Origin: a virus
Length of the DNA stretch: 64,000 nt
Reading direction: 5' to 3' (one strand)
IMG/VR virus record: IMGVR_UViG_3300023179_000094
Location: 1 to 64,000 of that record
Of the stretch, positions 16,285 to 54,832 are shown piece by piece (positions within the stretch are counted from its first letter, which is position 1; the number at the start of each line of letters is the position of its first letter). Below the pieces are notes generated by a model, which was given only the letters and a program-made list of their open reading frames with translations, was not told the origin of the DNA and did not search any database. Position numbers and translations under genes: made by a program.

Positions 16285-16839
16285 ATGGCCGGTTTACCAC
16301 ATTACCAAAATTCATTGTATTCGATCAATAAATACGAACCAGTTTATCTCAATCAATTTGAGGTAACTGTAATTCCTCCTGCAGCTGTTCAAGGGGGTCA
16401 AATTTTGTTACAACAGGTTATGAGTGTAGCAGGAATGGACGTGGATAAAAACCCATCTTTTGTTTTCCAAAAATACAAGTTTGCCAAAAGAAACTATGCG
16501 GGAGGTAAACCAGATAAAACCAGTTTGGATTTAAGTGTGAAATTTACGGTGAATTTGAATGACGATAATTCTATGTACACGTTCAAAACCCTGAGACAGT
16601 GGACCGATTTGATTTACAATCCACTTACAGGAGCTATGGGGATCAAAACGGATTACACTGGTACGGTCATCATTTCTATTTTCAACAAAAACGGAGATGT
16701 TTTCAGGAGAATTACCTGCAGAGACTGCTTTCCTATGAAAGCTATTGATCCGATGGAGTTAGATTATGTGAATGGAACTACCTTGTATGAAATCACAATG
16801 ACATGGGCGGTTGATTATTGGGATGATCTATTTACCTAA
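16285..16839 (+). CDS. gp19: Tail tube protein 1 (T4 gp19-like)
   Basis: 184 residues, near the usual gp19 size (163). Starts MAGLPHYQNSLYSIN. It has the tube signature KYKFAKRNYAGGKPDKTSLDLSVKFTVNLN, and the WTDLIYNPLTGAMG segment is shared nearly word for word with the next gene. It follows the sheath gene as in T4. Tube proteins stack as hexamers inside the sheath. The late-type box 18 bases upstream suggests its own transcript start. Confidence 0.9.
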   Translation: MAGLPHYQNSLYSINKYEPVYLNQFEVTVIPPAAVQGGQILLQQVMSVAGMDVDKNPSFVFQKYKFAKRNYAGGKPDKTSLDLSVKFTVNLNDDNSMYTFKTLRQWTDLIYNPLTGAMGIKTDYTGTVIISIFNKNGDVFRRITCRDCFPMKAIDPMELDYVNGTTLYEITMTWAVDYWDDLFT

Positions 16840-16854
16840 AAATTAAAAAAATAA

Positions 16855-17436
16855 ATGGCAGGTTTACCACACTTCAATAATTCTCTAGCGGCTCGCAACA
16901 ACTTCGAACCAGTTTTTCTGAACCAATTCGAAGTTCTGATTACACCTCCGGCAGGAGTGACATTAGGTAATGTGAGATTCAATGGGGAATCTATTATGAC
17001 GCAGCAGGTCAAAAGCGTAACCGGATCTCTTGCAGTTGATATTCAACCTGCTGCTCCAGTAACACAGTACTATAAATTCGCAGAAAGAAGATATGCAGGA
17101 GGTGAACCTTCTACTTCTGATGTTCAATTTTCGATTGCTTTTGAGGTTAATTTGAACGAGAATAATTCAATGACCATTTTTAAAATCTTGCGTCAATGGT
17201 CAGATTTGATTTACAATCCTTTAACCGGTGCTATGGGATTGAAAAGAGATTACACTGGACAAATTGTTGTATCAATCTTTAACAAACAAGGTGATGTATT
17301 TCGCAGACTAACTTTGAATAACTGCTTCTTGATCGAACCACTGACCACAATGGCATTAAGTTATGATTCCGGGGATGCTTTATACATTCTAGACACCACC
17401 TGGAAATCCGATTACTGGCAAGACCAATTCCTATAA
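16855..17436 (+). CDS. Tail tube protein 2 (gp19 paralogue)
   Basis: 193 residues, clearly paralogous to the product of 16285-16839: same MAGLPH start, same FAERRYAGGEPSTSD core, same LIYNPLTGAMG segment. Differences cluster in the N-terminal loop (an insert around TLGNVRFNGESI) and the C-terminal strand. It starts 15 bases after the first copy. It could form a distinct ring of the tube (initiator, terminator or alternating subunit), or act as a tube/baseplate adaptor. Confidence 0.88.
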   Translation: MAGLPHFNNSLAARNNFEPVFLNQFEVLITPPAGVTLGNVRFNGESIMTQQVKSVTGSLAVDIQPAAPVTQYYKFAERRYAGGEPSTSDVQFSIAFEVNLNENNSMTIFKILRQWSDLIYNPLTGAMGLKRDYTGQIVVSIFNKQGDVFRRLTLNNCFLIEPLTTMALSYDSGDALYILDTTWKSDYWQDQFL

Positions 17437-23925: not shown

Positions 23926-24692
23926 ACAAGAATTTACATTGGTTTATAATTTCAACCTTTGTATCTTTGTATTTGGTGGTTAGTATAATTTCTACTATAC
24001 ACGTTATTGACTTTTTCAAACTTTCAAATCCAGACTGGCTTGCCATTTTTCTTGCTATTTCGTTTGAAATAGGAGCAGCTGCCTCTCTCGCTTCTTTGAT
24101 TGTACTTAAAAAAATGAACAAGACCTTGGTATGGCTTTTATTTTTTGTTTTGACAGCAATGCAAGGAATGGGAAACACATATTATGCGTTCATAAATCTT
24201 GAAAATTTTGAAGCTTGGAGTCAACTTTTCGGATTGGAAGAAGAAGAGCTCATTTACCAAAAGAGAATACTTAGTATTATTTCAGGGGCTATTCTCCCTT
24301 TGGTATCTTTAGGATTTATAAAGTCTCTTGTTGATTACATTAAACCTGACGAATCAGCAAAAAACGAAGAACCTCTAAATCAGTTAGAAACTGGGGGTAA
24401 TCTAATCAATCACGAACAAGAAATAAATTCAAAAATAGTAAGAGAAGAAATTATTCAAGAAACAATCATCGATGGAGGTTTACCAACCGCAGAATTTCCA
24501 AAGGGAGAAACCTCTGAATTTTTAATGACGTCAGATGAAAATACTAACAATGATGAAGATTTGAAACAGTTCGGCGATGAAATAAAAGAAATTGGAAAAG
24601 TTGAAACTGTAGAAATCACAAATGCAAATTCCAATAGACCAAAAAGAAGTGATAATCCAAAGGCACCTTGGATAGATCCGGCCAGATTATAA
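23922..24692 (+). CDS. Multi-pass membrane protein with acidic cytoplasmic tail
   Basis: 256 residues. Four hydrophobic segments in the first ~145 residues (around 8-27, 37-60, 65-85 and 113-132), then a ~110-residue acidic, disordered tail ending in a basic, Pro-rich motif (RPKRSDNPKAPWIDPARL). It overlaps the previous membrane gene by 4 bases, so the two are probably a pair. It could act in envelope remodelling or lysis timing; no family recognised. Confidence 0.6.
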   Translation: MNKNLHWFIISTFVSLYLVVSIISTIHVIDFFKLSNPDWLAIFLAISFEIGAAASLASLIVLKKMNKTLVWLLFFVLTAMQGMGNTYYAFINLENFEAWSQLFGLEEEELIYQKRILSIISGAILPLVSLGFIKSLVDYIKPDESAKNEEPLNQLETGGNLINHEQEINSKIVREEIIQETIIDGGLPTAEFPKGETSEFLMTSDENTNNDEDLKQFGDEIKEIGKVETVEITNANSNRPKRSDNPKAPWIDPARL

Positions 24693-24694
24693 AA

Positions 24695-25372
24695 ATGTCC
24701 AATGGGAATAATTCAATAACAGGTGGAGATTTAGATATCTATGGAGGAAGTTCGGCAGCGGTTACTGGGGGAACATATTTCGGTGAAGGTTCTTCACAGA
24801 TAGGATTGGACCCAGGACCTTCTGCAAATTTTGATACTCAATATACTCTGATTGCCTTAAACCCTGGGGGTTTAGAAAGAGTTAATTTGACATTCTCAAA
24901 CTTCAATGACCCGAAAAATATTCGGTTTTATAATACATCTATGAATGTTGCTTGGCAAGATGTAACCGAACAAAAATTAGATTTGGTAGATTTTTTCTAT
25001 CCAGTTCGAGATTTTTCAGGATATCAACAACAAACTTTTGTTATAGCTCCTTATACATCGGTTAATCTAGATCAGGGTGATTTTGACACAACCCTGGGCG
25101 AAATTGGTTTATTTATGGCAAGAGCACAATTTTATGCAGATGCTACACCAGATCAAAGAATGCTTTACTGGGAATACAAAGGTTCCCGTTACATCATGGC
25201 AGATTTTATGATGTTAACAGGTCAGGTAAAAAACGGTCAAATTTGGAAGGGATGGCAAACCAGTAATAATGTTAGTTCAGAGGTAGGTTACACTGGAGCT
25301 GCAACCGGAGGATTTGTATTCTCAAATCCAACCGAGTACAATGTAAAATTAACGGTTCTAACCGCAAGTTAA
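24695..25372 (+). CDS. Virion-type protein, paralogue of 25374-25916
   Basis: The start at ATG 24695 (MSNGNNSITGGD), 2 bases after the preceding stop, is preferred over an in-frame start at 24668 within the preceding gene. 225 residues, beta-rich. Its last third (MLYWEYKGSRYIMADFMMLTG ... FVFSNPTEYNVKLTVLTAS) aligns with the end of the next product (YIYWNYQGKTYNLGELMVLSG ... ITFTNPHPDFDVKLQVLVAK). This looks like a tandem duplication of a small structural, perhaps decoration or fibre-related, protein. Confidence 0.6.
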   Translation: MSNGNNSITGGDLDIYGGSSAAVTGGTYFGEGSSQIGLDPGPSANFDTQYTLIALNPGGLERVNLTFSNFNDPKNIRFYNTSMNVAWQDVTEQKLDLVDFFYPVRDFSGYQQQTFVIAPYTSVNLDQGDFDTTLGEIGLFMARAQFYADATPDQRMLYWEYKGSRYIMADFMMLTGQVKNGQIWKGWQTSNNVSSEVGYTGAATGGFVFSNPTEYNVKLTVLTAS

Positions 25373-25373
25373 A

Positions 25374-25916
25374 ATGGCAACTAGACCTATACTCTGTCCC
25401 CCTATCCCTCCCAATGGTTGGGTTTTCTTCAAAAACCAATTTATGTTGGAGGAAGATTTCAATTATACAACTTTTTTTAATTTCAAAGATTTATTCTTTG
25501 ATGTTCAGGATTACTCAAGATTGATGATCACACTTAAAAGAACTAAATCAATAAAACTAAGTCAAACCGATATTGGAACCGAAGGATTTGTGAGATGGAT
25601 AGCAGTTAAAGTTCAATATCCAGCTCCTAAAAATCCGATATTATTCGCTTCACAAACCCCAATTATTCCCGGAGTTCCGACTCCTACTAACGGTACACCA
25701 CAAATTCAAAAATACATTTATTGGAACTATCAAGGAAAAACTTACAACTTAGGAGAACTTATGGTGTTGAGCGGGAACCCCCTAGGATCTACCGATTCCG
25801 ATGTAACTGGATGGAATTTGAGCGAATATGATTTACTTTATTCTGGTGGAGGAATCACTTTTACCAATCCCCATCCCGATTTTGATGTTAAGCTACAAGT
25901 TCTTGTTGCTAAATAA
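25374..25916 (+). CDS. Virion-type protein, paralogue of 24695-25372
   Basis: 180 residues, one base after the preceding stop. Beta-rich, with an N-terminal Pro-rich segment (PILCPPIPPNGW) and a C-terminal domain shared with the previous gene. The N-terminal halves differ, so the pair has a common C-terminal module and divergent heads. Function unknown. Confidence 0.6.
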   Translation: MATRPILCPPIPPNGWVFFKNQFMLEEDFNYTTFFNFKDLFFDVQDYSRLMITLKRTKSIKLSQTDIGTEGFVRWIAVKVQYPAPKNPILFASQTPIIPGVPTPTNGTPQIQKYIYWNYQGKTYNLGELMVLSGNPLGSTDSDVTGWNLSEYDLLYSGGGITFTNPHPDFDVKLQVLVAK

Positions 25917-29228: not shown

Positions 29229-29714
29229 ATGACTGACATTAAGAAAATAAAACCTAACGGTGACTACAAATCTGGTTTGTATGTACCCGTTAATCCAGAA
29301 AAATATGTTGGTGATATTCACAACATTATTTGTAGATCAAGTTGGGAATTCAGATTTTGCAAATATTGTGATAACAATGAAAAAATTTTAAAGTGGAGTT
29401 CTGAACCAGCGGCAATTCCTTATTACAATCCACTAGATAAAAAAGATCACAATTACAACGTTGATTTTTACTTGAAAGTTCTTCAAGATGATGGAAATGA
29501 ACAGGAATGGCTGGTGGAGGTTAAGCCAGAAAAACAACACCAAAAGCCAATCTACGAAGGAACATACACCGTAGAAAAATTAAAATCTTACAATCACAAA
29601 ATGCAAATTTGGATTACCAATCAGGCCAAATTCAAAGCTGCAAAACACTGGGCAGAAAGTAGAGGTATGAAATTCGGAGTTGTCAACGAGAAATTCCTAT
29701 TTCAAAGCAAATGA
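29229..29714 (+). CDS. gp4: Head completion nuclease (T4 gp4-like)
   Basis: 161 residues, matching T4 gp4 (150). The order of conserved parts is as in gp4: GLYVPVNPEKYVGD at the N-terminus, then CRSSWEFRFCKYCDNN, SEPAAIPYY, VDFYLKV and WLVEVKPEKQ (the acidic-x-Lys nuclease core), and late KAAKHWAESRGMKF. T4 gp4 completes filled heads before tail joining, probably by trimming the DNA end. It overlaps the next gene by 4 bases. Confidence 0.88.
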   Translation: MTDIKKIKPNGDYKSGLYVPVNPEKYVGDIHNIICRSSWEFRFCKYCDNNEKILKWSSEPAAIPYYNPLDKKDHNYNVDFYLKVLQDDGNEQEWLVEVKPEKQHQKPIYEGTYTVEKLKSYNHKMQIWITNQAKFKAAKHWAESRGMKFGVVNEKFLFQSK

Positions 29715-30313
29715 TGGACTTTCCCGAACAGGCTAAAAAATTGAGAAGTCAATTTTCCTCTTTGTCTGAACTTAATTCCTTCGTAAACCAAGAATTCTTA
29801 GAGAAGTATGGCCCCGACTCAAAAAATCCCGGTGAAAAATTCACAGCCTTCAAGAGTGGAAAAATTTATTTTGCATTACATATCACAAAATCAAAGCCAG
29901 GAGAAAAAAATTCGTTTGTTAATAGATATCCTTGTTTTCTTTTTTTGTCTGAAGAAAGGATTGGAAATAGTGTAATTTGTAAAGTTATGGATTTAACAAT
30001 TGTCCCACCCGATAATCTCGCAGAAATTTTAACACGTTTGACCAAAACTTTTTCGGAAATACTTGACGAAAATGTCAGAAACATTTCTGGATCTCAAATG
30101 CCATTGAATCTAAAAGGAGAAAATTTACAAAAAATATTCAAAGGTACTGGATACGAATTCGCGATTTTTGGACTCGTAAAGGAAAATTTGAGGGGAATGA
30201 AAATAGTAGATTATTCAGATTGGGTTAAAATCCCATATTTCAACCAAGCCACTTTAGAGGGTCTCTCTCTGGATCAGATATATAGAGAATATAAATCGAA
30301 AATAAAAATTTGA
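29711..30313 (+). CDS. Conserved-type phage protein, 200 aa, before the portals
   Basis: Mixed alpha/beta protein with no signal peptide. Ends with IVDYSDWVKIPYFNQATLEG...IYREYKSKIKI. The start overlaps the gp4-like stop (ATG ATG; either Met could be used). Its place between a head-completion gene and the portal genes suggests a head/neck assembly function, but I cannot name the family. The internal GATATATA at 30277-30284 lies near its end. Confidence 0.6.
   Translation: MMDFPEQAKKLRSQFSSLSELNSFVNQEFLEKYGPDSKNPGEKFTAFKSGKIYFALHITKSKPGEKNSFVNRYPCFLFLSEERIGNSVICKVMDLTIVPPDNLAEILTRLTKTFSEILDENVRNISGSQMPLNLKGENLQKIFKGTGYEFAIFGLVKENLRGMKIVDYSDWVKIPYFNQATLEGLSLDQIYREYKSKIKI
30277..30284 (+). promoter_or_regulatory. 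Possible late promoter box GATATATA upstream of portal genes
   Basis: GATATATAGAG lies within the coding end of the 29711 gene, 59 bases before the first portal ATG. It matches the recurring box, but the spacing is longer than elsewhere and the codons could account for it. Confidence 0.3.
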
Positions 30314-30343
30314 TTTTGTCTATAAAACCAAATTTCTGACTTC

Positions 30344-31969
30344 ATGGCAGGATTTAACGAGAACCCAAACACCAACCCTATATTCCAAAGAATTAGGGAC
30401 TCGATCAAAAATCTGAGCAATTTCGGATTAAGATATGGAGACATGGTGGTCAAAAATTCACAGGCGATTGGTACCACAGAGGCAGAATTTTTAAAGAAAG
30501 GCCCGATTGAAGATGAAACTACACTTTTCTCTTTAGGTAGACAAGATACGACTACCAGACAGTACGTTTCATATTTTGATAAAGACTATGCAGGAAAAAG
30601 AGATTATCTAAGAAAATTTTCTTTAAATCCTGAGATTGAATACATTTTGGATACGGTCTGCGACGAGGCAATTTCCTACGATGGATTTAATTTTTTCGCA
30701 TATCCAGCCTTCTTAAATATTATTGGAATTAAAAAAGATGTTATAGATAAAATTGATTCGACGTACAAAAAATTGTACGACATGTTTGGTTTCAATGACG
30801 ATATTTCTGCATGGCAATATTTCAGACAACTTCTTGTTGATGGTTTCGTTGCTTTCGAAATCGTATACGATGACAAGGGAAAAAATATTATTGGTTTCAA
30901 AGAGCTAGACGCAACCACCCTTATGCCTTCCGTAGAAAAGCAAAAAGATGGAACCTTCTTAAATGTTTGGTATCAATATCCTAAGGACGAAAGAAAAAGG
31001 AGGATGCTTTACGATTCTCAAATCATTTATCTTTCTTACGCCAAAGGTAATTCTGTTTCAAGAGTAAGTTATACTGAAAGATTAATTCGTCCGTACAATG
31101 TTCTGAGGATCATTGAATACACTCGTGTCATTTGGTCTGTGATGAATGCATCATTCCGTCTGAAAATGACAGTCCCCGTGGGGTCCAGATCACAACAAAA
31201 GGCTATGCAAACTCTTGGTGAGTTGATGTCCATATACAAAGAAGATATTCAATTCAACGATGAAAGTGGGGAACTTTCGGTAAATGGTCAGCCAAAAATT
31301 CAGTTTTACAAAAATTATCTGATGCCCAAGGGAGCTTTAGGTACTCCAAATATTGAACCACTCAACACCGCCGGACCAAATTTGAACGATCCAGCTCCAT
31401 TGGCTTACTTTTTCGACAAGTTGGTTCAAGAATCTAAAATTCCATTTTCTAGATTTCAAGGACCAGATGGTGGATCGATTGGTAAATATGCCAATGCAGC
31501 AGAAGGATTGGATAAAGAGGAAATTAGATTCGCAAAGTTTATTATGAGATTAAGATCCGTTTTTCAGGACATTCTTATAAAACCTTTGTGGATTCAATTG
31601 TGTAGAGATTTTCCACAATTGGAGAAAGATTACATGTTCAGAAGTCAACTTGGATTAACTTTTGTTTCGGATAATCCATTCAGAGTTAATCAGGAAATAG
31701 AAACGATGAACAAAAGGAAAGAATCCATAGATGCCATGTATGGATTGGTGGACGGAGAAGGGCAGCCTTTCTTTTCTTTGGGTTATTTAATTGAAAATTT
31801 TCTTGGAATGACTGAGGATGATATCAAATCCAACGAAGAAGCTAAAGAGAAGGCCAAGAATAAAAAATCGAAAGAAACTCCAGAAGGCGGAGAAGGATCT
31901 GAAGGCGGTGCTCCAGAATCAGGAACCGAACCAGGAGGATCTCCACCAGAAACAGAAACACCGGCATAA
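30344..31969 (+). CDS. gp20: Portal protein 1 (T4 gp20-like)
   Basis: 541 residues (T4 gp20 is 524). Contains the portal family segments YGDMVVKNSQAIG, AGKRDYLRKFSLNPEIEYILDTVCDEAI, WQYFRQLLVDGFVAFEIVYDD and GNSVSRVSYTERLIRPYNVLR, the last around the clip/stem region. It forms the dodecameric vertex through which DNA is packaged. The C-terminus is a Gly/Glu/Pro-rich disordered tail. A second full-length copy follows 2 bases after its stop, with the same MAGFN start. Confidence 0.93.
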   Translation: MAGFNENPNTNPIFQRIRDSIKNLSNFGLRYGDMVVKNSQAIGTTEAEFLKKGPIEDETTLFSLGRQDTTTRQYVSYFDKDYAGKRDYLRKFSLNPEIEYILDTVCDEAISYDGFNFFAYPAFLNIIGIKKDVIDKIDSTYKKLYDMFGFNDDISAWQYFRQLLVDGFVAFEIVYDDKGKNIIGFKELDATTLMPSVEKQKDGTFLNVWYQYPKDERKRRMLYDSQIIYLSYAKGNSVSRVSYTERLIRPYNVLRIIEYTRVIWSVMNASFRLKMTVPVGSRSQQKAMQTLGELMSIYKEDIQFNDESGELSVNGQPKIQFYKNYLMPKGALGTPNIEPLNTAGPNLNDPAPLAYFFDKLVQESKIPFSRFQGPDGGSIGKYANAAEGLDKEEIRFAKFIMRLRSVFQDILIKPLWIQLCRDFPQLEKDYMFRSQLGLTFVSDNPFRVNQEIETMNKRKESIDAMYGLVDGEGQPFFSLGYLIENFLGMTEDDIKSNEEAKEKAKNKKSKETPEGGEGSEGGAPESGTEPGGSPPETETPA

Positions 31970-31971
31970 TT

Positions 31972-33579
31972 ATGGCAGGATTTAACGATGATAACAGCCA
32001 GCAGCGTTCCTTTTTAGGAAATCTGTACAGAAACCTATCTAAGATTGGAAGGTTTGGTATGCAGTACGAGGATATGGTTATCCGGAATTCTCAGGCTATA
32101 GGGGCAACCGAATCTACCTTTTTCAACAACCAAGGAACGGGATTCACCGAGAATGATGCTTTCTTCTGGACTTTAGGTTATCAAGATACTAGAGTAAGAA
32201 AATACATAGCCTATTTTGACAAGGATTATCTTGGAAAAAGAGAGTTTCTAAGAAAGTTTGCTTTGAATGGAGAAATTGATTTTATTCTAGATACTTTATC
32301 AGACGATGCCATCAACTACGATGACAAAAATTTCTTTGGTTATCCGTCTTTGTTAAATATTGATTTAAAACCAGAAGTTCGTTCCAAGGTAGAAGAAAAT
32401 TTTAGAACTTTGTACATGCTGTTTGGTTTTCAACAAAGTACTCTCGCCTGGCAGTATTTCCGTCAATTTCTGATAGATGGTTTTTTGGCTTTTGAAATTG
32501 TCTACTCGACAGATGGAAAAAAAATTGTTGGTTTTAAAGAATTAGATGCCACTTCCCTTCAACCTGCAACTGAACAACAACCTAACAAAGAATTTCAACA
32601 AATCTGGATTCAATACCCAGGTGATCCCAGAATGACCAGAAAATTAAAGGCAGAGCAGGTCATTTATCTTTCCTATGCCAAGGGTAATTCCGTTTCCAGA
32701 GTTAGCTACACTGAAAGACTGATCAGATCTTATAACATTCTGAGAGTCATGGAAAATACTAGGGTAATTTGGAATGTCATGAACGCTTCATATCGTTTGA
32801 AATTTGTTATTCCCGTTGGAACCCAATCCGGACAAAAAGCTATGCAAACCCTGGGACAGCTGATGTCTCAGTATAAAGAAGAAATTCAAATTAATGATAC
32901 CTCCGGGGAATTGACTGTTAATGGTGCTCCCAGAGTACAGTTTTACAAAAATTATCTCTTCCCAGAAAAAGACGGGGAATCGCCAGACATTAACACTTTA
33001 AATCCAAATGGTCCCGATTTCAACGTGATGGAAAATGTTGTTTATTTTTACAACAAGCTAAAATTGGACTCCAAAATTCCATATGCTAGGTTCGCTGGAA
33101 GAAGTGGGCCTGCCACCTATCAAATATCAATTGACCAGTTAGAAAGAGACGAAATTAGATACGAAAAATTTGTTACACGTTTGAGATCGGTTTTTCAAGA
33201 ACTTTTGGTTAAACCTCTTTATATCCAAACTTGTTTGGATTTTCCTGCCTTGTCTGAAGATAGATCATTCAAAGTAAATTTGGGTTTGAACTTCGTTAAA
33301 GAAAATGTTTTCGAACAACTAATTGTTTTATCTAACTACACGAAAAGAACGACATTCATCACCGCATTGGGAGATATGAAACAAAAAATCGGAGAAGAAG
33401 AAGTTCCATATTTCGATAAGGAGTGGTTGATAAAAAGATGGCTTGGTTTGAGTATGGACGAATATAGAGAAAACGAAAAATTCAAAAAAGAAGAAAAGAA
33501 TCAAGCGGACAAGGCCAAAAAGGATAAAGGTGAAGAAGGAAAGGGTGGAGAAACAGATGCATCAGATTTCACGCTTTAA
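31972..33579 (+). CDS. Portal protein 2 (gp20 paralogue)
   Basis: 535 residues, paralogous over its whole length to the product of 30344-31969 (MAGFN start; YEDMVIRNSQAIGATE; WQYFRQFLIDGFLAFEIVY; SVSRVSYTERLIRSYNILR). No disruption is visible: both frames are intact and all major segments are retained, so neither looks like a pseudogene. It ends in a Lys-rich rather than Gly-rich tail. Two intact portal genes in tandem are not a T4 feature. A mixed ring, alternative portals or division of labour are all possible. Confidence 0.9.
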   Translation: MAGFNDDNSQQRSFLGNLYRNLSKIGRFGMQYEDMVIRNSQAIGATESTFFNNQGTGFTENDAFFWTLGYQDTRVRKYIAYFDKDYLGKREFLRKFALNGEIDFILDTLSDDAINYDDKNFFGYPSLLNIDLKPEVRSKVEENFRTLYMLFGFQQSTLAWQYFRQFLIDGFLAFEIVYSTDGKKIVGFKELDATSLQPATEQQPNKEFQQIWIQYPGDPRMTRKLKAEQVIYLSYAKGNSVSRVSYTERLIRSYNILRVMENTRVIWNVMNASYRLKFVIPVGTQSGQKAMQTLGQLMSQYKEEIQINDTSGELTVNGAPRVQFYKNYLFPEKDGESPDINTLNPNGPDFNVMENVVYFYNKLKLDSKIPYARFAGRSGPATYQISIDQLERDEIRYEKFVTRLRSVFQELLVKPLYIQTCLDFPALSEDRSFKVNLGLNFVKENVFEQLIVLSNYTKRTTFITALGDMKQKIGEEEVPYFDKEWLIKRWLGLSMDEYRENEKFKKEEKNQADKAKKDKGEEGKGGETDASDFTL

Positions 33580-33589
33580 ATTTCAATAA

Positions 33590-34567
33590 ATGAATTTCAA
33601 AGAATTATTTTCAACACAGAAAATTCTTGTTGTGGGTGATTCCATTTTGGATCACTATGTGTATGGAAAAGTTCACAGGGTATCTCCAGAAGCACCAGTT
33701 CCGGTTGTTCTTAAGAACAAAGAAGAATTTTTCCTGGGCGGGGCGGCAAATGTAGCACAGAACATCACGATATTCGGAGCCAATTGTACCCTGTTATCTT
33801 TGGTTGGTGATGATGAGGATGGAAAAATTTTGTTTGAAAAATGTATCGAGAAAAAAATCAACCCTATTTTTATCGAAGAAGAATCCAGACCAACAACAAA
33901 AAAAACCAGAGTAATAGGAAATAAACATCAAATTGTTAGAATTGATGTTGAAACAACTTGTGATCTATTAGAAAACTCAACTTTGAAAATTATTGAAATT
34001 TTCGACGAACAGATTCAATCTCACGATGGAGTTATTTTTCAAGATTATGGGAAAGGGTTACTTACGGATTATCTTTTAGCATCTCTAATTGAAATAGCGA
34101 AAAAATACTCCAAAAAGATTTTGGTTGACCCTAAAGAACCAGATCTTGGGCGTTATCAAGGAATCGATCTGATCAAACCAAATCTGAGTGAATTCAAGAC
34201 CATGGTGAATATCAAATCTGAAGAAGATTTAGAAATTGAACAGATTATAAATTATGCCCAATTGGTGATGGAGGAATTTGACTACCAATATTTCCTTATC
34301 ACTTTATCGGAAAATGGCATGTTATTGGTTGGAAGACATTTTTCTCATCACATCCCTGGAATCAGTGTGGATGTTGCCGATGTCTCTGGGGCAGGGGATA
34401 CCGTTTCTGCCATATTTGGATTGGGATTCTTTTCCGGTGAGAACGGTGTTTTATCGAATGATTATTTGATTGGTGTGGCAAAACTCGCTAATTTGGCAGG
34501 ATCTTTAGTGTGTAGACATTCGGGGTCTATCCCAGTAAATCCTGAAGAATTGTGGAGATCTTCCTGA
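33590..34567 (+). CDS. hldA: Heptose 7-phosphate kinase (HldA/RfaE1-like, PfkB family)
   Basis: 325 residues. Typical RfaE domain I: VVGDSILDHYVYGKVHRVSPEAPVPVV, GGAANVAQN (the PfkB family first signature), SLVGDDEDG, RVIGNKHQIVRID, and DVSGAGDTVSAIFG (second PfkB signature with the catalytic Asp). The family phosphorylates D-glycero-beta-D-manno-heptose 7-phosphate to the 1,7-bisphosphate, a step towards ADP-heptose. The adenylyltransferase half of bifunctional HldE is absent, and no GmhA, GmhB or HldD gene is in the window, so the phage would depend on host or other phage genes. It pairs logically with the TibC-like transferase at 5634. Confidence 0.9.
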   Translation: MNFKELFSTQKILVVGDSILDHYVYGKVHRVSPEAPVPVVLKNKEEFFLGGAANVAQNITIFGANCTLLSLVGDDEDGKILFEKCIEKKINPIFIEEESRPTTKKTRVIGNKHQIVRIDVETTCDLLENSTLKIIEIFDEQIQSHDGVIFQDYGKGLLTDYLLASLIEIAKKYSKKILVDPKEPDLGRYQGIDLIKPNLSEFKTMVNIKSEEDLEIEQIINYAQLVMEEFDYQYFLITLSENGMLLVGRHFSHHIPGISVDVADVSGAGDTVSAIFGLGFFSGENGVLSNDYLIGVAKLANLAGSLVCRHSGSIPVNPEELWRSS

Positions 34568-34689: not shown

Positions 34690-36666
34690 ATGAAGAGACT
34701 TATCTTGGCGTTTATTCATACTTGTGAAAGCGCTATTGATTATTCCCCAAAAAAGTTAATTGCGACATTAGCTGTAATGACTTTGCTTCTCGGAGCAGAG
34801 ATTTCTCAAGCCCAGATCGGACCTCCTGCTCCAGGCAACGGAATTTACGCAATCATCGACACTTCTTACCGACTCGGAACCGCAACCGAGGGTCAATCAC
34901 AAGCAAAGATCACGCTAAAAAATACTACAGCGACTCTCTACACTGGGGTCCAGTTTCGAGTATTTTACGACAAGTCAGCTTTCTCTTCTGCAAACGTTTC
35001 ATTGATCGGTCCGCCAGCAATGTTGGACCTACAAGTGTTGGATAACAACCCTGGAGGGTACGTAACTGTCACTTTAGTCTACACGGGTAGCAGCCCTACA
35101 TACACTCTTCCTGATGGCGAAAGATTTTTAATAACTCTGACACACGTACCTTCATCAACTTTCTTCTCACTACCCGCAATTAGCGAACTTACTTGGTCGG
35201 GAGGTGTTGCATACCCCCAAGTTGCTGCTTCACAAGCTGGTTTGGATGTGCCGCTGTCTCTTCATAGCTATGGTGGATCTTGGTCTCAGCCTCGCTTTGC
35301 TTTTCGTGGTAACTTTACGAACGTAACCAATACACCTTCTAAGAATCTTACTCTAGCTTTGGAGAAAAGAGTCAAAGGAAGTGGCAGTTGGAGTGTTCAT
35401 GGATCTTACACTACCAACATCAATGGAAACTTTACTTTAACAGAAATCATCGATACTACGTACTATGACGTTCGTCTGAATGTCAAAGGTGATACCATGA
35501 CGGTAGGAAATGCGATTTCTACCGCGGACGCTCAATTGATCAATCAATGGGCACTCGGTGGAATAACTCCTACAGCATGGGACTTTTACACTGGTGACGT
35601 AAACGGATCCAACGATCTGACTATCACAGATGCATACGGAGTATTCGGTAAAATCTCTGGTAGATTCGCCACATGGCCGAATGGTGTCAAAGACGTTAAG
35701 TTCTTTACAGTATCTGAGCACGCAACTATCACTGGTTCTCCAGCGAACAACTACACATCAACAATCCCAGGTTTGACCAACTTTACTTATGAGATCCTAC
35801 CTGGAGCCGCAGATTCTGTTAAGTTCTACGTTCTCGTTCCAGGAGATGCAAACGGAACCGGCTATCGAATGGCTCGTCTTACCCCAATAGAAATCTCACC
35901 TAATCCAGATCCACAGTATCCTTCCCAGATCGAAAACATCATCGATATGAACGTTGAGTATGACTTTCCGACAAACTCGATGGAAGTCAATTTTCCTTCT
36001 CTTAAAGTAGATGCTGGGAGCCTAGTCGAGGTCCCTGTGACTCTTAAAACGTACGGACAGGAGGTATCAGCCCTTCAGCTGGGAATGCTTTACGACGAAA
36101 AACTCTTGGAATTCAAAGAGCTATCAAACTCCCCGAAAGCTATGTTCTGGATGTCTTCGTTAAACCCATCAGACGGTCTCGTCGAGTGGTCAGGCTATGA
36201 TCCTTCTCGAAACAAGACCTACATGATACCGGACAACTATCGCATGTTTACGCTTAAGTTTATCGCTAAGAAGCCGCAAGGTGAGTGGGAAACTTCGCCG
36301 CTATCGACCACTCGTAAGTTTTCTGGTGACAATACATCAAAAGATATGACAATCTTCCCTACGAACGGAATTCTCGTCGTCGCAAGAATCGGCTTCGATG
36401 TTCCGCAGTCTAACAAGATGGTAGTTTATCCTAACCCAGTAACAGGTGATTTCTTCGTCAAGTTTAAGGTCAAAGAAAGCGGTCTTGTTAGACTATTCAT
36501 AATGGATCTAGGAGGATCGATCCAGCACGTGATTCTCGATCGTGAAATGCCTGCTGGAGATTACACATATTCATCGAACATTGACAACTTAAGAACAGGT
36601 ATGTATGTAGCAATTTTAAATTCAACCAACCAGTCCGAAGGGCTAAAAATCATCAAACAAAAATAA
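34690..36666 (+). CDS. Secreted cohesin/dockerin-like protein with T9SS sorting domain
   Basis: 658 residues. The N-terminus has a hydrophobic stretch ending in AEISQAQ (cleavage predicted near residue 42). Next come a cohesin-like beta domain (~48-210), a second beta domain with a dockerin-like calcium loop pair (GNAISTADAQ and, from D303, DVNGSNDLTITDAYGVFG), a second cohesin-like domain (~420-560), and a C-terminal ~79-residue block from residue 580 (YPNPVTGDFFV ... LRTGMYVAIL ... LKIIKQK), the type A sorting signal read by the type IX secretion system. T9SS exists only in Bacteroidota, which fixes the host group. Expected at the host cell surface or secreted. Confidence 0.8.
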   Translation: MKRLILAFIHTCESAIDYSPKKLIATLAVMTLLLGAEISQAQIGPPAPGNGIYAIIDTSYRLGTATEGQSQAKITLKNTTATLYTGVQFRVFYDKSAFSSANVSLIGPPAMLDLQVLDNNPGGYVTVTLVYTGSSPTYTLPDGERFLITLTHVPSSTFFSLPAISELTWSGGVAYPQVAASQAGLDVPLSLHSYGGSWSQPRFAFRGNFTNVTNTPSKNLTLALEKRVKGSGSWSVHGSYTTNINGNFTLTEIIDTTYYDVRLNVKGDTMTVGNAISTADAQLINQWALGGITPTAWDFYTGDVNGSNDLTITDAYGVFGKISGRFATWPNGVKDVKFFTVSEHATITGSPANNYTSTIPGLTNFTYEILPGAADSVKFYVLVPGDANGTGYRMARLTPIEISPNPDPQYPSQIENIIDMNVEYDFPTNSMEVNFPSLKVDAGSLVEVPVTLKTYGQEVSALQLGMLYDEKLLEFKELSNSPKAMFWMSSLNPSDGLVEWSGYDPSRNKTYMIPDNYRMFTLKFIAKKPQGEWETSPLSTTRKFSGDNTSKDMTIFPTNGILVVARIGFDVPQSNKMVVYPNPVTGDFFVKFKVKESGLVRLFIMDLGGSIQHVILDREMPAGDYTYSSNIDNLRTGMYVAILNSTNQSEGLKIIKQK

Positions 36667-38198: not shown

Positions 38199-39569
38199 AT
38201 GTATGCGAAAATCGTCTTATTTGTTTTATCAATGTTTTTTTCCGTGTTTGCGTTTGGACAAACCTCTTACTCTTACGTCGATCCTTGCACAGGAACTACG
38301 ACTACGATCAACTTTCCTTCGACTGGTATAGTCGTAACTTATTACGGAGAAATCCGTGCTTTTCAACCTTCCGACTTTTATAACGGAACATTCGAGAACT
38401 GGGCGCAAGGTGTGTACAGTTCTTTCGGCGGATCCAACCCTTGCGCTTCGGTTGTAGGATTACCCACAGGAATAAATATCGCACAAGGGACAACGATCAA
38501 CTTGCTAGGAATCATCAACTCGCTCGACGCAATTTCTGGCATAGCGAGTAGTAACACTGGAATCTCTACGGGTATCAATGCGCCTACCGAAAATAATATA
38601 TCTAATAATGGAAACACCCAACCTAATTCTAACGTTTCTGGGAACTCTGGCAACAGTGGCTCTTCTCAAGCAAGCGGCGGTACGTCAAACCCTCAAAGTT
38701 CGTCTACACAAGGAGGAAATAATCAAGGATCATCTGGGAATTCCCAAAGCCAAAATGGCCAAGGATCGGGTGCTGGTGGGAGACAGTCTGGAAGTGGCAC
38801 GGGACAAGGCGAAGGATCTAATCAAGAATCCGGCGGAGGAAAAACAGACGTAGCTGGATCTAGTGTCAAAAGTACCGAGTCTTCTTCTTCCGAAAGTGGA
38901 GGTGACTCCAAACCTTCTTCTCGTAGTGGTCTCCGTCCCAACATCGTCGCAAACAGCGACCTTGCCGCTTTCAACTACAAGAATTCACAAGTAGACTACG
39001 GTGGAAAGTTCACAGGAGGTTATACTGCTGTAAGGTGGGACGGAGCTCGTTCTTATGGAATCGTGGCAGACTACACGACTGCACTTAGAGGCCCTAATAT
39101 TAGCGGATTCTACGCTTTCTTACACGAAAAAAGGATAGACATATTTTCTACAGCGATCACAGTTGGATTCGATGCTAAGTTTACGATATATGGAACATTT
39201 TCTGCTGGACAGATGTGGAATCTGACTAAAGACAAAAAAGCAAAGGCTCTTTACATGGCAACAGTATCTGCTGGCAAAGTGTTTAACGAGAAATTTTTTG
39301 GAACAGCCGTCATAACCGGAGGAATGTATGACTGGAAAGTCACCAAAGGAATCGATATGAAAATCATGGGGCTATATGTCTATGCTCCGTACGTCGTGTA
39401 CTATACCGACATTCTTCTTAAGTCCCCGCATGTCATACTGCCGATCATAGGAACGAACATTGGTATCACAAAGAAGTTTAAGATAAATATCAATACTGGT
39501 GGCGCTTTTGCTGCCAATGATAAAGCTCTTAACTACACCGTGATGATAGGAACACGTCTACTTTTATGA
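38199..39569 (+). CDS. Secreted low-complexity protein with C-terminal beta-barrel-like domain
   Basis: 456 residues, starting directly after the preceding TAA. Signal peptide MYAKIVLFVLSMFFSVFAFGQ. Residues ~125-245 are an extreme Gly/Ser/Asn/Gln tract (short repeats such as SGNSGNSGSSQ). The last ~190 residues alternate hydrophobic strands (AITVGFDAKFTIYGTFSAG ... YTVMIGTRLLL) typical of outer-membrane beta-barrels in Bacteroidota. It overlaps the next gene by 4 bases. It could be an outer-membrane surface protein exposing a sticky tract. No family match claimed. Confidence 0.6.
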   Translation: MYAKIVLFVLSMFFSVFAFGQTSYSYVDPCTGTTTTINFPSTGIVVTYYGEIRAFQPSDFYNGTFENWAQGVYSSFGGSNPCASVVGLPTGINIAQGTTINLLGIINSLDAISGIASSNTGISTGINAPTENNISNNGNTQPNSNVSGNSGNSGSSQASGGTSNPQSSSTQGGNNQGSSGNSQSQNGQGSGAGGRQSGSGTGQGEGSNQESGGGKTDVAGSSVKSTESSSSESGGDSKPSSRSGLRPNIVANSDLAAFNYKNSQVDYGGKFTGGYTAVRWDGARSYGIVADYTTALRGPNISGFYAFLHEKRIDIFSTAITVGFDAKFTIYGTFSAGQMWNLTKDKKAKALYMATVSAGKVFNEKFFGTAVITGGMYDWKVTKGIDMKIMGLYVYAPYVVYYTDILLKSPHVILPIIGTNIGITKKFKININTGGAFAANDKALNYTVMIGTRLLL

Positions 39570-40744
39570 GAAAACTTGGTATCTACATAATCTTACTTTT
39601 GTTTTTTCCTGAATCTTTCTGTAAGGCACAACCTTTTACACATTCAGGATATGTTTACAATTCCAAAGAACAAGGGATTTCTCAAATACCAGTCAAGCTC
39701 TACGGGAAAAGAACAGATCCTTACGATGTGACATTTCCTGCGTATCCCTCTTCCCCTAACTACACAACAGGCACTGTCATACCTTCTTCTGACGATGCCA
39801 CACACGGACCGTTCAATATAGGATTTTCGTTTTCTTTTTTCGGAAGTTCTTATACACAATTTTATGTAGGATCGAACGGATGGATTGGTTTCAGCCCGGG
39901 ACAGACCACTGGTTATACTGCAGCTTACATACCAAACGCTGGATCCCCCAGAAATGTTATTCTTGCTGACTGGGAAGACCTTTTACCGGGATCGTCAAAC
40001 ATACGTTTCATAACTACAGGTGCATCACCAAACCGTTCTTTGACAGTTTCTTTCAACGCTGTACCTCACTACGGATGTAGGTCAAACTTTCATACTTTTC
40101 AATTTATCCTGTATGAAACGTCAAACATAATAATCATCAACTACGCTTCTAAACCTCTTTGTCCGGGGAACAGCTCGACTGCGGGACTTGTCAACGCCAA
40201 CAATACTAACGTCGTTCCCGTAGGAGGAAAAAATGCTTCTCAGTGGTCAGTGACAAATTACTCAGTAATGTTCACACCTTCTGCAGTTGACACTGCGTTC
40301 TATCTTAAGAACGTTTATTACACGAACTCTAGCGGTTTATATACGATGAATCCTGGTTTAGACGTTCAATCATACCAGTTCGAAGTCAGGATCGATTCTT
40401 TAGTTGTGCTTCCCCCGGCTCTAAGTGATGCACGAGAAATTTCAAAATCAGTTATGATCGGTTCATCACCGTCTTCACTGACTTACTATCAGATGGACAT
40501 CAATGACGACGGCCGGGTGACGGTATCAGATGTTTTTCTTGCTCATGCAAGAATCTCTGGAAGGTTTTCTACATGGCCTTCTTCGCCTTCGCATCGTCTA
40601 TTTGTTCTTTCTGAATGGAATGTTATAAAATCCGGATCGAACAACCTAAAAAGTACGTATCCTGGAATGCAAGAAATCAAGGTTTCCGCAAACAACGGGG
40701 GTACTTCGAACTTTTATCTAATTAGGACTGGATACATAAACTAA
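39566..40744 (+). CDS. Secreted nidogen/dockerin-like protein
   Basis: 392 residues. Signal peptide MRKLGIYIILLLFFPESFCKAQ. Residues ~75-240 show a nidogen-type beta sandwich (NIGFSFSFFGSSYTQFYVGSNGWIGFSP). Residues ~310-340 hold a dockerin-like motif (MDINDDGRVTVSDVFLAHARISGRFSTWP), whose tail repeats the ISGRF-x-TWP sequence of the T9SS-sorted protein at 34690. It ends without a sorting domain. This is consistent with a partner of the T9SS protein through cohesin/dockerin contacts, or simply a shared module. Confidence 0.6.
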   Translation: MRKLGIYIILLLFFPESFCKAQPFTHSGYVYNSKEQGISQIPVKLYGKRTDPYDVTFPAYPSSPNYTTGTVIPSSDDATHGPFNIGFSFSFFGSSYTQFYVGSNGWIGFSPGQTTGYTAAYIPNAGSPRNVILADWEDLLPGSSNIRFITTGASPNRSLTVSFNAVPHYGCRSNFHTFQFILYETSNIIIINYASKPLCPGNSSTAGLVNANNTNVVPVGGKNASQWSVTNYSVMFTPSAVDTAFYLKNVYYTNSSGLYTMNPGLDVQSYQFEVRIDSLVVLPPALSDAREISKSVMIGSSPSSLTYYQMDINDDGRVTVSDVFLAHARISGRFSTWPSSPSHRLFVLSEWNVIKSGSNNLKSTYPGMQEIKVSANNGGTSNFYLIRTGYIN

Positions 40745-52798: not shown

Positions 52799-54832
52799 AT
52801 GATGATGGAAGATCTACCTTTTATGAACGAGAATTTGGTGTTTATCTTGGAAAAGCAAGGTCATCATGTCCAGGCTTCTAAAGACTCTGACGGATACACT
52901 TTGAAGGGTATTGCAGCACAATTCGGAAAAGAAAACAATAATAACAGAATTTATGAAGAAACTGAATATCTTCCACACTTAGATTATTTGAACGAGAAAA
53001 TCAAACAAAAGAGATTGGTTGGCGAGTTAGATCACCCTGAAAAATTTGATGTTTCTCTGAAGAATATCTCCCACATCATTGAGGATCTACAATACGACAA
53101 AAGCGGAAGAGTACTTAAAATCAAGGTTAAATTGCTAGACACCCCTGCGGGTCAGATCGCCAAGAAATTGGTAGATGCAGGTATTCCTCTTTCAATATCT
53201 TCTCGTGCAGCAGGAAACGTAGGACCAGATAAAAAAGTACAAATCAAAAAAATCTTCACGTACGATCTTGTAGCAGATCCTGGTTTTCAAGATGCTCAAT
53301 TAGAAAGAGTGTACGAAAGTGCCGGTTTTTCTTTTTCTGAGTTTTCAGATAGACACAAAAATTCTATTGTTAACGAGCTAAAATGTGTTAACGAGTCATT
53401 AGGTATCAAAAATGATTCGGGAGTGATGATATATAAGGTTGACGATAACGAAGAATTCAAAAAAATAATCAAACAAGATAAAAATAAAAATTACACCATG
53501 GAGTCCAGAAAAGAATATGTAACGAGTGAAGAACTCAACAATTATTCCATTTTCCTAAAGAAAAAAATGGATGAGCTCGAGTCCCAAATCCGTGAGGCTA
53601 AGAATACGCAGAATTTGGTTGAAAGCTCAGATTCTTACACAGCAGAATTAGAAGAAAGAGTAGATCGTCTGGAGAAATATTGTGAATATCTCGCAGAAAA
53701 CCTTGAGGCTTCTATCAAATATGGAGAATACGTTGCGGAGAATTTGGACAACTCCATCACTTACAGCAAATACCTTGCAGAAAATCTGGACAAGAATATT
53801 TCCTATTCTAAATATCTGGCAGAGAACGTCGACAAGTCAATTTTGTACTCCGAGTATGTTGCAGAGAATGTGGACAAAGGCATCAACTACTCTAAATATC
53901 TCGCAGAGAAGTTGGATGACAGCATTCAATATTCAGAGTACCTGGCAGAAAATGTGGATCACACCATTGCCTATTCAGAGTATTTGGCGGAGAATGTGGA
54001 CAGAAATATTTCTTATTCCGAATATCTAGCAGAGAAGTTGGATAGAAACATTTCCTATGCGGAATATCTTGCTGAGAATTTGGATAAAGGCATTGCCTAT
54101 TCCGAATACCTTGGCGAGAATCTCGATAAAGGTATTGCCTACTCGGAATATCTTGGTGAAAAATTGGAACAAGGAATTTCCTATTCCGAATATCTGGCAG
54201 AAAATGTAAACAGAACTATTTCTTATTCTGAATACATCGCCGAAAAATTGAATGGCACGATTTCGTATACCGAGTCTTTGTCAGAAAGCGTAGGTTATCA
54301 ACCGGTGGTTGAAAGAGACGCTAGGAGACAGGCAGAAGTCGCCTCAAGAACTGAATTAGCGGAGTCTGGTTTTGCTGGAGATTATACCAATCTCGGCAAA
54401 CAGATTGATTTCCTAATTGAGTCGGTCCAAACCCAAAAGACCGAAACAAATCAAAGAAAGGCTGAGAGTAATTGGCAGCCTACTGCTGGAACCAAAAAAG
54501 CAGATCAAGTTCTCAACGAGAATTCAAACGCCATCTTTTCAACTGGCCACAAGTTCATCGACGAGATGCCAACAGAGTATGCTCCGATTTGGGAGTCGTT
54601 GAACGAAGGACAGAAGCAATCAATTATTGCCCAGTCTGCCTTCCACAATCTCAATACCCCTTATCAGATCAGAAATTTCTGGTCAACCCGTCAGTTTGGA
54701 CCTAAGCCAATGGCTATGCAAAAATTGCACGAGAACGAAAACATATCAGAGTCTTCAAACACTCAGAAACCCGGTGCCTACAACAACGATTATCTGAGCT
54801 GGGTGGCTAAGTCACTAGAAGGCAAATTCTAA
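52799..54832 (+). CDS. Prohead protease-scaffold fusion (T4 gp21 plus gp22-like)
   Basis: 677 residues. Residues ~1-190 carry the T4 gp21-type prohead protease: GELDHP with His79 and LSISSRA with Ser at 132-135, followed by DLVADPGF. After a linker comes a coiled coil (~240-290), then fourteen consecutive 14-residue repeats (residues 296-491) of the type EYLAENLDKNISYS. The C-terminus (PIWESLNEGQKQSI ... YQIRNFWSTRQF) resembles prohead core (gp22) ends. T4 encodes protease and scaffold separately; here one chain appears to do both. It lies directly before the capsid gene. Confidence 0.85.
   Translation: MMMEDLPFMNENLVFILEKQGHHVQASKDSDGYTLKGIAAQFGKENNNNRIYEETEYLPHLDYLNEKIKQKRLVGELDHPEKFDVSLKNISHIIEDLQYDKSGRVLKIKVKLLDTPAGQIAKKLVDAGIPLSISSRAAGNVGPDKKVQIKKIFTYDLVADPGFQDAQLERVYESAGFSFSEFSDRHKNSIVNELKCVNESLGIKNDSGVMIYKVDDNEEFKKIIKQDKNKNYTMESRKEYVTSEELNNYSIFLKKKMDELESQIREAKNTQNLVESSDSYTAELEERVDRLEKYCEYLAENLEASIKYGEYVAENLDNSITYSKYLAENLDKNISYSKYLAENVDKSILYSEYVAENVDKGINYSKYLAEKLDDSIQYSEYLAENVDHTIAYSEYLAENVDRNISYSEYLAEKLDRNISYAEYLAENLDKGIAYSEYLGENLDKGIAYSEYLGEKLEQGISYSEYLAENVNRTISYSEYIAEKLNGTISYTESLSESVGYQPVVERDARRQAEVASRTELAESGFAGDYTNLGKQIDFLIESVQTQKTETNQRKAESNWQPTAGTKKADQVLNENSNAIFSTGHKFIDEMPTEYAPIWESLNEGQKQSIIAQSAFHNLNTPYQIRNFWSTRQFGPKPMAMQKLHENENISESSNTQKPGAYNNDYLSWVAKSLEGKF
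53684..54271 (+). repeat. Fourteen 42-bp repeats in the scaffold part
   Basis: Fourteen 42-bp units with variable nucleotides but a conserved residue pattern (E/K)Y(L/V)AE(N/K)(L/V)D..I.YS. The phase of 14 residues equals two heptads of a coiled coil. Confidence 0.9.

Follow-up and report, generated by a model that had tools for sequence, protein, structure and literature searches.

An old tandem pair of predicted T4-type portal genes with opposite tunnel-loop tip charges in a clade of uncultured phages

The window, that is, the whole stretch of 64,000 nucleotides analysed here, is part of a 71,396-base virus record (IMG/VR IMGVR_UViG_3300023179_000094). It carries two portal genes in tandem, here called A and B. 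Both open reading frames (ORFs) found in the scan of the window begin with ATG and are free of internal stops, and the two proteins align colinearly over 533 positions with 50% identity. The initial annotation had described two intact, full-length, colinear portals of 541 and 535 residues lying 2 bases apart, and the coordinates, Pfam, PHROG, the alignment and AF2 models all agree with that description. The features of the locus, and the protease and capsid genes about 20 kb past the portal pair, are as follows.

29229 to 29714, plus strand: head closure gene (PHROG 218), the upstream neighbour conserved by synteny; context, outside the portal pair
30344 to 31969, plus strand: portal A, 541 aa, T4 gp20 family (ORF, Pfam Portal_T4, PHROG 213, AF2 model against T4 gp20 with Z 22.9, conserved clade)
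31436 to 31516, plus strand: tunnel loop of A, residues 365-391, aligned to T4 gp20 374-398; acidic tip D375 at 31466-31468
31970 to 31971, plus strand: 2-base spacer separating the A stop codon from the B start codon (range over 104 distinct pairs, 1-23 bases)
31972 to 33579, plus strand: portal B, 535 aa, T4 gp20 family, tandem paralogue of A (ORF, Pfam Portal_T4, PHROG 213, AF2 model with Z 22.4)
33073 to 33147, plus strand: tunnel loop of B, residues 368-392 by the T4 alignment; basic tip R377 at 33100-33102
52799 to 54832: protease gene
54859 to 56586: capsid gene

Simple promoter and terminator scans of positions 30000-34000 gave no clear excess over shuffled sequences, and AGGAGG is no commoner than chance expects.

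Pfam Portal_T4 is matched by A (E 2.4e-60, 205 bits) and by B (E 1.2e-58, 199 bits) along almost the entire profile (positions 7-431 and 9-433 of 433), against a cut-off of 22.9 bits. Both proteins also match PHROG 213 'portal protein' and, at the sequence level, the solved T4 gp20 chains. The best match of both AF2 monomer models among solved chains is T4 gp20 (9lu7_a: Z 22.9 and rmsd 16.1 over 395 aligned residues for A; Z 22.4 and rmsd 9.2 over 382 for B), the large rmsd going with moderate model confidence (mean pLDDT 69.3 for A and 65.5 for B, pTM 0.61 and 0.58, with stretches of the tunnel loops and N-termini below pLDDT 50). Wing, stem, clip and crown of the portal fold are present in both predicted models, as are the channel loop and the tunnel loop. 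The channel loop is 10 residues long in A, B and single portals alike, and the tunnel loop has 27 residues in A (45/45), 26 in B (44/45) and 24 in single portals (23/25). T4-type portals typically come as one gene per genome and every dual-portal locus has two, a difference in copy number and not in family membership. Sequence and predicted fold mark both proteins as full-length T4-type portals.

Related loci were gathered by scans with A, with B, with the portal of LR756500 and with an alignment, plus two scans with a distant member. These gave at least 334 related loci, a figure to which four of the six scans contribute at most 80 loci each (80 of at least 569 for the scan with the alignment) and in which overlapping loci of one contig count twice. 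A survey of related phages for the pair had been proposed in the initial annotation; among the 334 loci listed it recovers the same two genes in the same order in 242, and the pair is thus far beyond chance. Of the remaining loci, 84 carry a single portal of the sister type, 3 show B alone, 2 show A alone, and 3 have a broken or split frame (L011 and L100 of the dual type, L225 of the sister type). A precedes B in all 244 two-gene loci listed, that is, the 242 plus L011 and L100 with one broken ORF. Both ORFs reach at least 500 aa in 209 of the 242, and in the remaining 33 one ORF is cut at the locus end. Loss of one copy in some members was considered and rejected, as the five loci with a single type all stop at a contig or locus end and none of the loci listed has lost a copy. 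At the DNA level there are 104 distinct full pairs, with intergenic gaps of 1-23 bases, and A and B within one genome are 47-54% identical (45 representatives). A recent duplication or an assembly artefact was rejected in view of these distinct pairs, this degree of divergence and the old split in the tree described below. The longest dual-portal contig listed has 434,509 bases, so at least some dual-portal phages are jumbo phages.

That T4-like phages normally have one portal, as the initial annotation supposed, holds in the phage collection searched. The collection comprises 50,697 phage records; 1109 of them match A, at 1111 places, and 2027 match B, at 2029 places, with thresholds that would miss a very divergent second portal. 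The surplus places belong to LR756501 and LR756503 (both 735,411 bases), with two places each; the second place in LR756501 is a fragment-like ORF of 342 aa with portal-like stretches, and not a second full portal.

To place the duplication, a portal tree of the 23 dual genomes plus 13 other portals was considered. In this tree, A forms one clade (100/100) and B another (100/100), with stems of 0.62 and 0.61. The grouping of A with B is supported at 98/94, with a single-portal sister clade outside, and the deep outgroup branches are long and their order unsure. LR756500, L142, L143 and L145, all with a single portal, make up a clade of their own (99/99). Gene conversion was rejected as A and B never cluster by genome. 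The gene order in the sister group is orf888, a sigma-like gene, the head-closure gene, portal, protease and capsid. In the dual clade the left side agrees with this, and after it come A, B, a clamp loader (16/16 loci shown) and mostly a ligase (14/16). The conserved synteny on the left side supports duplication in place. Tree and survey together show one old tandem duplication, before the radiation of an uncultured clade.

Selection was estimated from nine independent close pairs, since none of the pairs among the 23 representatives lies within the dS limit of 1.2. In these, A has dN/dS ratios of 0.011-0.077 (0.027 when summed) and B of 0-0.044 (0.018 when summed), and the difference between the copies is insignificant (p 0.13). 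As judged from these ratios, strong purifying selection acts on A and on B. Relaxed selection on one copy, the outcome that the initial annotation held to refute its reading, was tested at this level and not found (dN/dS about 0.02-0.03 in both). Over 253 genome pairs, the dN of A and that of B correlate at 0.94 with a slope of 1.03. In mirror-tree comparisons, r is 0.943 between A and B, and between either of them and four nearby genes it is 0.66-0.87; the higher A-B value is suggestive only, being weakened by shared phylogeny and protein length.

Differences between the copies were mapped on the domain borders of T4 gp20 as they appear in the available text of PMC4493910. With 23 genomes and a 90% threshold, 36 of 527 columns are fixed differently in A and B, and these are concentrated in the stem, channel loop and tunnel loop (19/75, against 17/452 elsewhere, p 1.2e-8), also when only columns conserved in both copies are counted (19/48 against 17/158, p 1.8e-5). 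The 45-genome set gives 15/75 in the same elements against 11/457 elsewhere at 90% (p 1e-7), 15/43 against 11/137 for columns conserved in both copies (p 6e-5), and 16/75 against 23/457 at 80% (p 1.4e-5). Stems 1 and 2 are fixed differently in 8 of 39 columns and the N-terminal region plus wing in 5 of 296, or 9 of 367 when the clip is added (45 genomes).

The direction of change, polarised with living single portals, also differs between the copies. At 90% in the 45 genomes, A has changed in 7 columns, one of them in the channel loop, stem 2 or tunnel loop, and B in 5, all of them there (p 0.015); this test comprises 12 of the 26 columns, the others being columns without a clear polarity (11) or changed in both copies (3). 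At 80%, 2 of 14 changes in A and 6 of 7 in B fall in these elements (p 0.003), and in the first set of 23 genomes 1 of 10 and 9 of 10 (p 0.0011). According to the part of PMC4493910 that describes these elements, the channel and tunnel loops of T4 contact DNA, and each tunnel loop touches that of the neighbouring subunit. If the elements form opposite subunit-contact faces, the polarity pattern would correspond to one new A-B interface and one old.

The copies also differ in charge at the tunnel-loop tip. Where D375 of A aligns with R377 of B, the residue is D or E in A (45/45 genomes), R or K in B (45/45) and D or E in single portals (25/25). The same was seen in an alignment-free check of the stretch from an RF-type motif to the next Y, a motif absent in 1 A, 7 B and 2 single portals. 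Where the motif is present, every A has one acidic residue (104/104, of which 33 also have one basic), every B has one basic and no acidic residue (98/98), and every single portal has two or three acidic residues (82/82). Acidic residues are also found there in T4, PAU, PTm1, LR756500 and others; LR756504 is without the motif. The mean net charge of the tunnel loop is +0.24 in A, +2.11 in B and -0.08 in single portals. The acidic tip thus appears to be the single-portal state, kept in A, and the basic tip of B a new state. In phage 812, by the available text of PMC12886913, a tunnel-loop lysine contacts the phosphates or backbone of the DNA.

From the retention of both genes the initial annotation had drawn three options: a portal ring that is specialised, one that is heteromeric, or a division of packaging and injection between the two proteins. 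Retention for a reason is borne out by the persistence of the pair, the low dN/dS and the equal divergence. Specialisation of A and B is supported, at the level of residues, by the fixed differences in the DNA channel and the switch of tip charge. Among the arrangements proposed the outcome is graded, as set out below.

Portals are not the only duplicated genes in the window. An all-against-all BLASTP comparison finds one other strong tandem pair, of tail-tube genes.

16285 to 16839, plus strand: tail-tube paralogue T1, 184 aa, PHROG 45 tail tube with E 2.4e-11
16855 to 17436, plus strand: tail-tube paralogue T2, 193 aa, tandem to T1 and 55% identical to it, PHROG 45 with E 2.9e-7

Exactly two tubes occur in 20 of 21 dual-portal records (none in G019), and exactly one in 10 of 14 single-portal records (none found in T4, G022, G023 and G027), where G008 and G010 have near-identical portals and the portal of G027 is the same as that of W02. 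In the tube tree, T2 is a clade (100/99), and T1 is less sure (82/78). The portal and tail-tube duplications appear to fall on one stem branch or close to it, and finding them together therefore counts as a single coincidence, not as replication. T1 probably belongs to the same diversified DNA conduit as the portal pair. A duplicated major capsid gene found no support as an explanation, since each of 13 records (13/13) has a single full-length capsid match, besides short partial matches.

Tailed phages have, as a rule, one portal vertex per head, and their portals are treated as rings of one protein. With one vertex and a shared capsid face, co-expressed paralogues must either mix or exclude each other. 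The best reading of the data, and one we consider somewhat more probable than its negation, is a heteromeric portal ring, its tunnel loops acidic from one protein and basic from the other. The tandem duplication of a single ancestral portal gene, before the radiation of an uncultured jumbo-phage lineage that is widespread today, is shown by tree and survey, and at the sequence level selection has kept both copies as full portal proteins. Under this reading, A and B would be made together from their abutting genes and build one mixed ring, in its simplest form six A and six B in alternation. As in T4, attachment to the capsid would fall to the outer wing, and the clip would bind first the packaging motor and later the neck. 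Two kinds of tunnel loop would line the channel, acidic-tipped ones from A and basic-tipped ones from B; adjacent acidic and basic loops may pair across subunits so that the channel closes, and the basic loops may grip the DNA backbone. Such a ring could hold a very large genome in the head more securely than a ring whose twelve acidic loops are all alike, and its six-fold symmetry would match a six-fold tail. Counted in favour of the mixed ring are the constant pair, the equal stems and dN, the low dN/dS, the position and polarity of the fixed differences, the tip charges, the lysine of phage 812, and the duplicated tail-tube gene beside a single capsid gene. It is counted against the mixed ring that T4-type portals form homo-rings by themselves. 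The mixed ring is nevertheless favoured over separate packaging and injection rings, as one vertex is expected and there are few differences in the N-terminal region and wing, the capsid side by comparison with T4.

Separate rings are the alternative that deserves most attention, although we regard them as unlikely. A and B would then each form a homododecamer, with a head built on one or the other, giving two particle types, or with one ring serving prohead initiation and packaging and later being replaced or joined by the other. Both proteins are complete portals by family and fold, each with its own conserved tunnel loop. The differences fixed in stems 1 and 2 (8/39) could make their subunit contacts mutually exclusive, and two rings with different channels would fit all the concentration and polarity results too. 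However, besides the rule of one vertex per head, the parts facing capsid and motor (N-terminal region, wing and clip) differ at only 9/367 columns, so that both rings would compete for one site, and the equal rates, constant gene order and gap of 1-23 bases fit a fixed stoichiometry better. A further step down in probability is the repurposing of one paralogue for another place in the virion, for instance as an extra collar or neck ring, as a ring inside the head, or as an assembly factor for prohead initiation, while the other stays the portal. Paralogues often gain new structural roles, and B is the more changed in the DNA-contact loops. A repurposed copy should, however, change in its capsid- and motor-facing parts, where few changes are seen; no domain has been lost from either protein, with Pfam coverage from end to end and clip and wing equally kept, and both evolve at the same rate.

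Whatever speaks for co-assembly speaks equally for a random mixed ring, in which A and B would join without fixed order or ratio and the benefit would be a graded grip on DNA, and nothing here fixes the ratio at 6:6. The close coupling of the genes and their equal rates hint, if weakly, at a fixed stoichiometry, and we consider random mixing improbable. Gene dosage or redundancy, with one product of which either copy suffices, would agree with the tandem position and common origin. It is set against the 47-54% identity of A and B within a genome in 45 representatives, the residues fixed separately in each copy with opposite loop charge in all genomes checked, and the lack of any genome with one copy lost among the loci listed, and is the least credible of these explanations.

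A wider version of the mixed-ring reading takes in the tail tube. The whole DNA conduit would have been rebuilt from paralogue pairs, with a 6+6 portal ring whose alternating loops act as an electrostatic iris and with a two-protein tail tube; portal symmetry would pass from twelve-fold to six-fold, matching the tail, and the capsid would still have one major protein. This is a tentative proposal, and we would expect it to be wrong sooner than right. In this lineage two diverged portal genes have persisted throughout the radiation, which offers a direct test of tunnel-loop function, acidic and basic loops having already been separated by nature onto two subunits. The pair is also relevant to an old problem, why the twelve-fold portal does not match the five-fold and six-fold parts that surround it, and to how heads hold very large genomes.

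The portal family itself is known, and no report of paired or duplicated phage portal genes was found in the open-licence PMC literature searched, including jumbo-phage and tail-tube topics. Among described phages, the moraphages are freshwater jumbo phages with predicted Bacteroidota hosts and a portal VOG, and some are kin to Lak phages in the published tree, according to the available text of PMC12619734. That text lacks the words 'duplicat' and 'paralog' and gives no portal copy number. The moraphages may overlap with the dual-portal clade. One scan of bacterial genome contigs with B found no relative, and the host assignment derives from a Por secretion tail in a neighbouring gene and from kin. 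The Lak megaphages, Sphingomonas phage PAU and the Tenacibaculum phages PTm1 and pT24 have T4-type portals 27-35% identical to A, with one portal place each and Bacteroidota hosts recorded for most. Lak-A2 and PAU, the two searched for tail tubes, have one each. The nearest relatives are the uncultured LR756500 (462 kb) and the L142/L148-L226 group, 41-46% identical to A or B. Their upstream gene order is that of the dual clade. In these relatives protease and capsid come after the one portal, whereas in the dual clade a replication block (ligase, clamp loader) comes after the two portals and, in the window, protease and capsid lie about 20 kb on; the relatives have one tail-tube gene where found, against two in the dual clade. 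The closest system of known structure is T4 gp20 (PF07230, PHROG 213; PDB 3ja7, 6uzc, 9lu7), whose domain order matches that of A and B, as does the predicted fold. T4 has one portal gene and a homododecamer, whereas the phage of the window has two genes, with opposite charge at the tunnel-loop tip.

Two tail-tube genes lie in tandem at window positions 16285-17436 and share 55% identity. Such a pair is found in 20 of the 21 records that carry both portal paralogues, A and B (dual-portal records), and the tail-tube gene is single copy in all 10 single-portal records where it was found. Adjoining genes of unknown kind at 24668-25916, encoding proteins of 234 and 180 aa with weak mutual likeness (26%), are present in dual-portal relatives, and were found in none of the six single-portal records searched.

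Portal B is followed immediately by a PfkB-type sugar kinase gene (33590-34567), which is present in some dual-portal relatives and absent from others. Further along, the 658-aa product of 34690-36666 contains a cohesin domain and ends in a sorting domain for Por (type IX) secretion at its C-terminus; it is apparently a phage-encoded protein for export by a Bacteroidota host. A second ORF, at 39566-40744, matches this protein with 32% identity over 123 aa.

Portal-like fragments are seen in related phages. In the 735-kb phage LR756501, a 342-aa ORF at locus L123 (142,302-142,829), distant from the full portal of that phage, carries portal-like stretches corresponding to residues 65-264 of A and 380-409 of B; no match to the clip region was found in this ORF. 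The sole portal-like stretch of a 190-aa ORF in the single-portal relative LR756500 (locus L124, 256,142-256,309) is clip-like, corresponding to residues 270-324 of A. Six of the records searched with the major capsid protein (G003, G005, G006, G007, W02 and W04) hold short stretches, distant from the capsid gene, that match part of that protein.

A dense array of 18/27-base repeats occupies window positions 3-935, inside long open frames on both strands. Within the head maturation protease ORF (52799-54832) there is an imperfect 42-base repeat array (53769-54234), with a unit of about 14 residues, which is perhaps a fused scaffold part.
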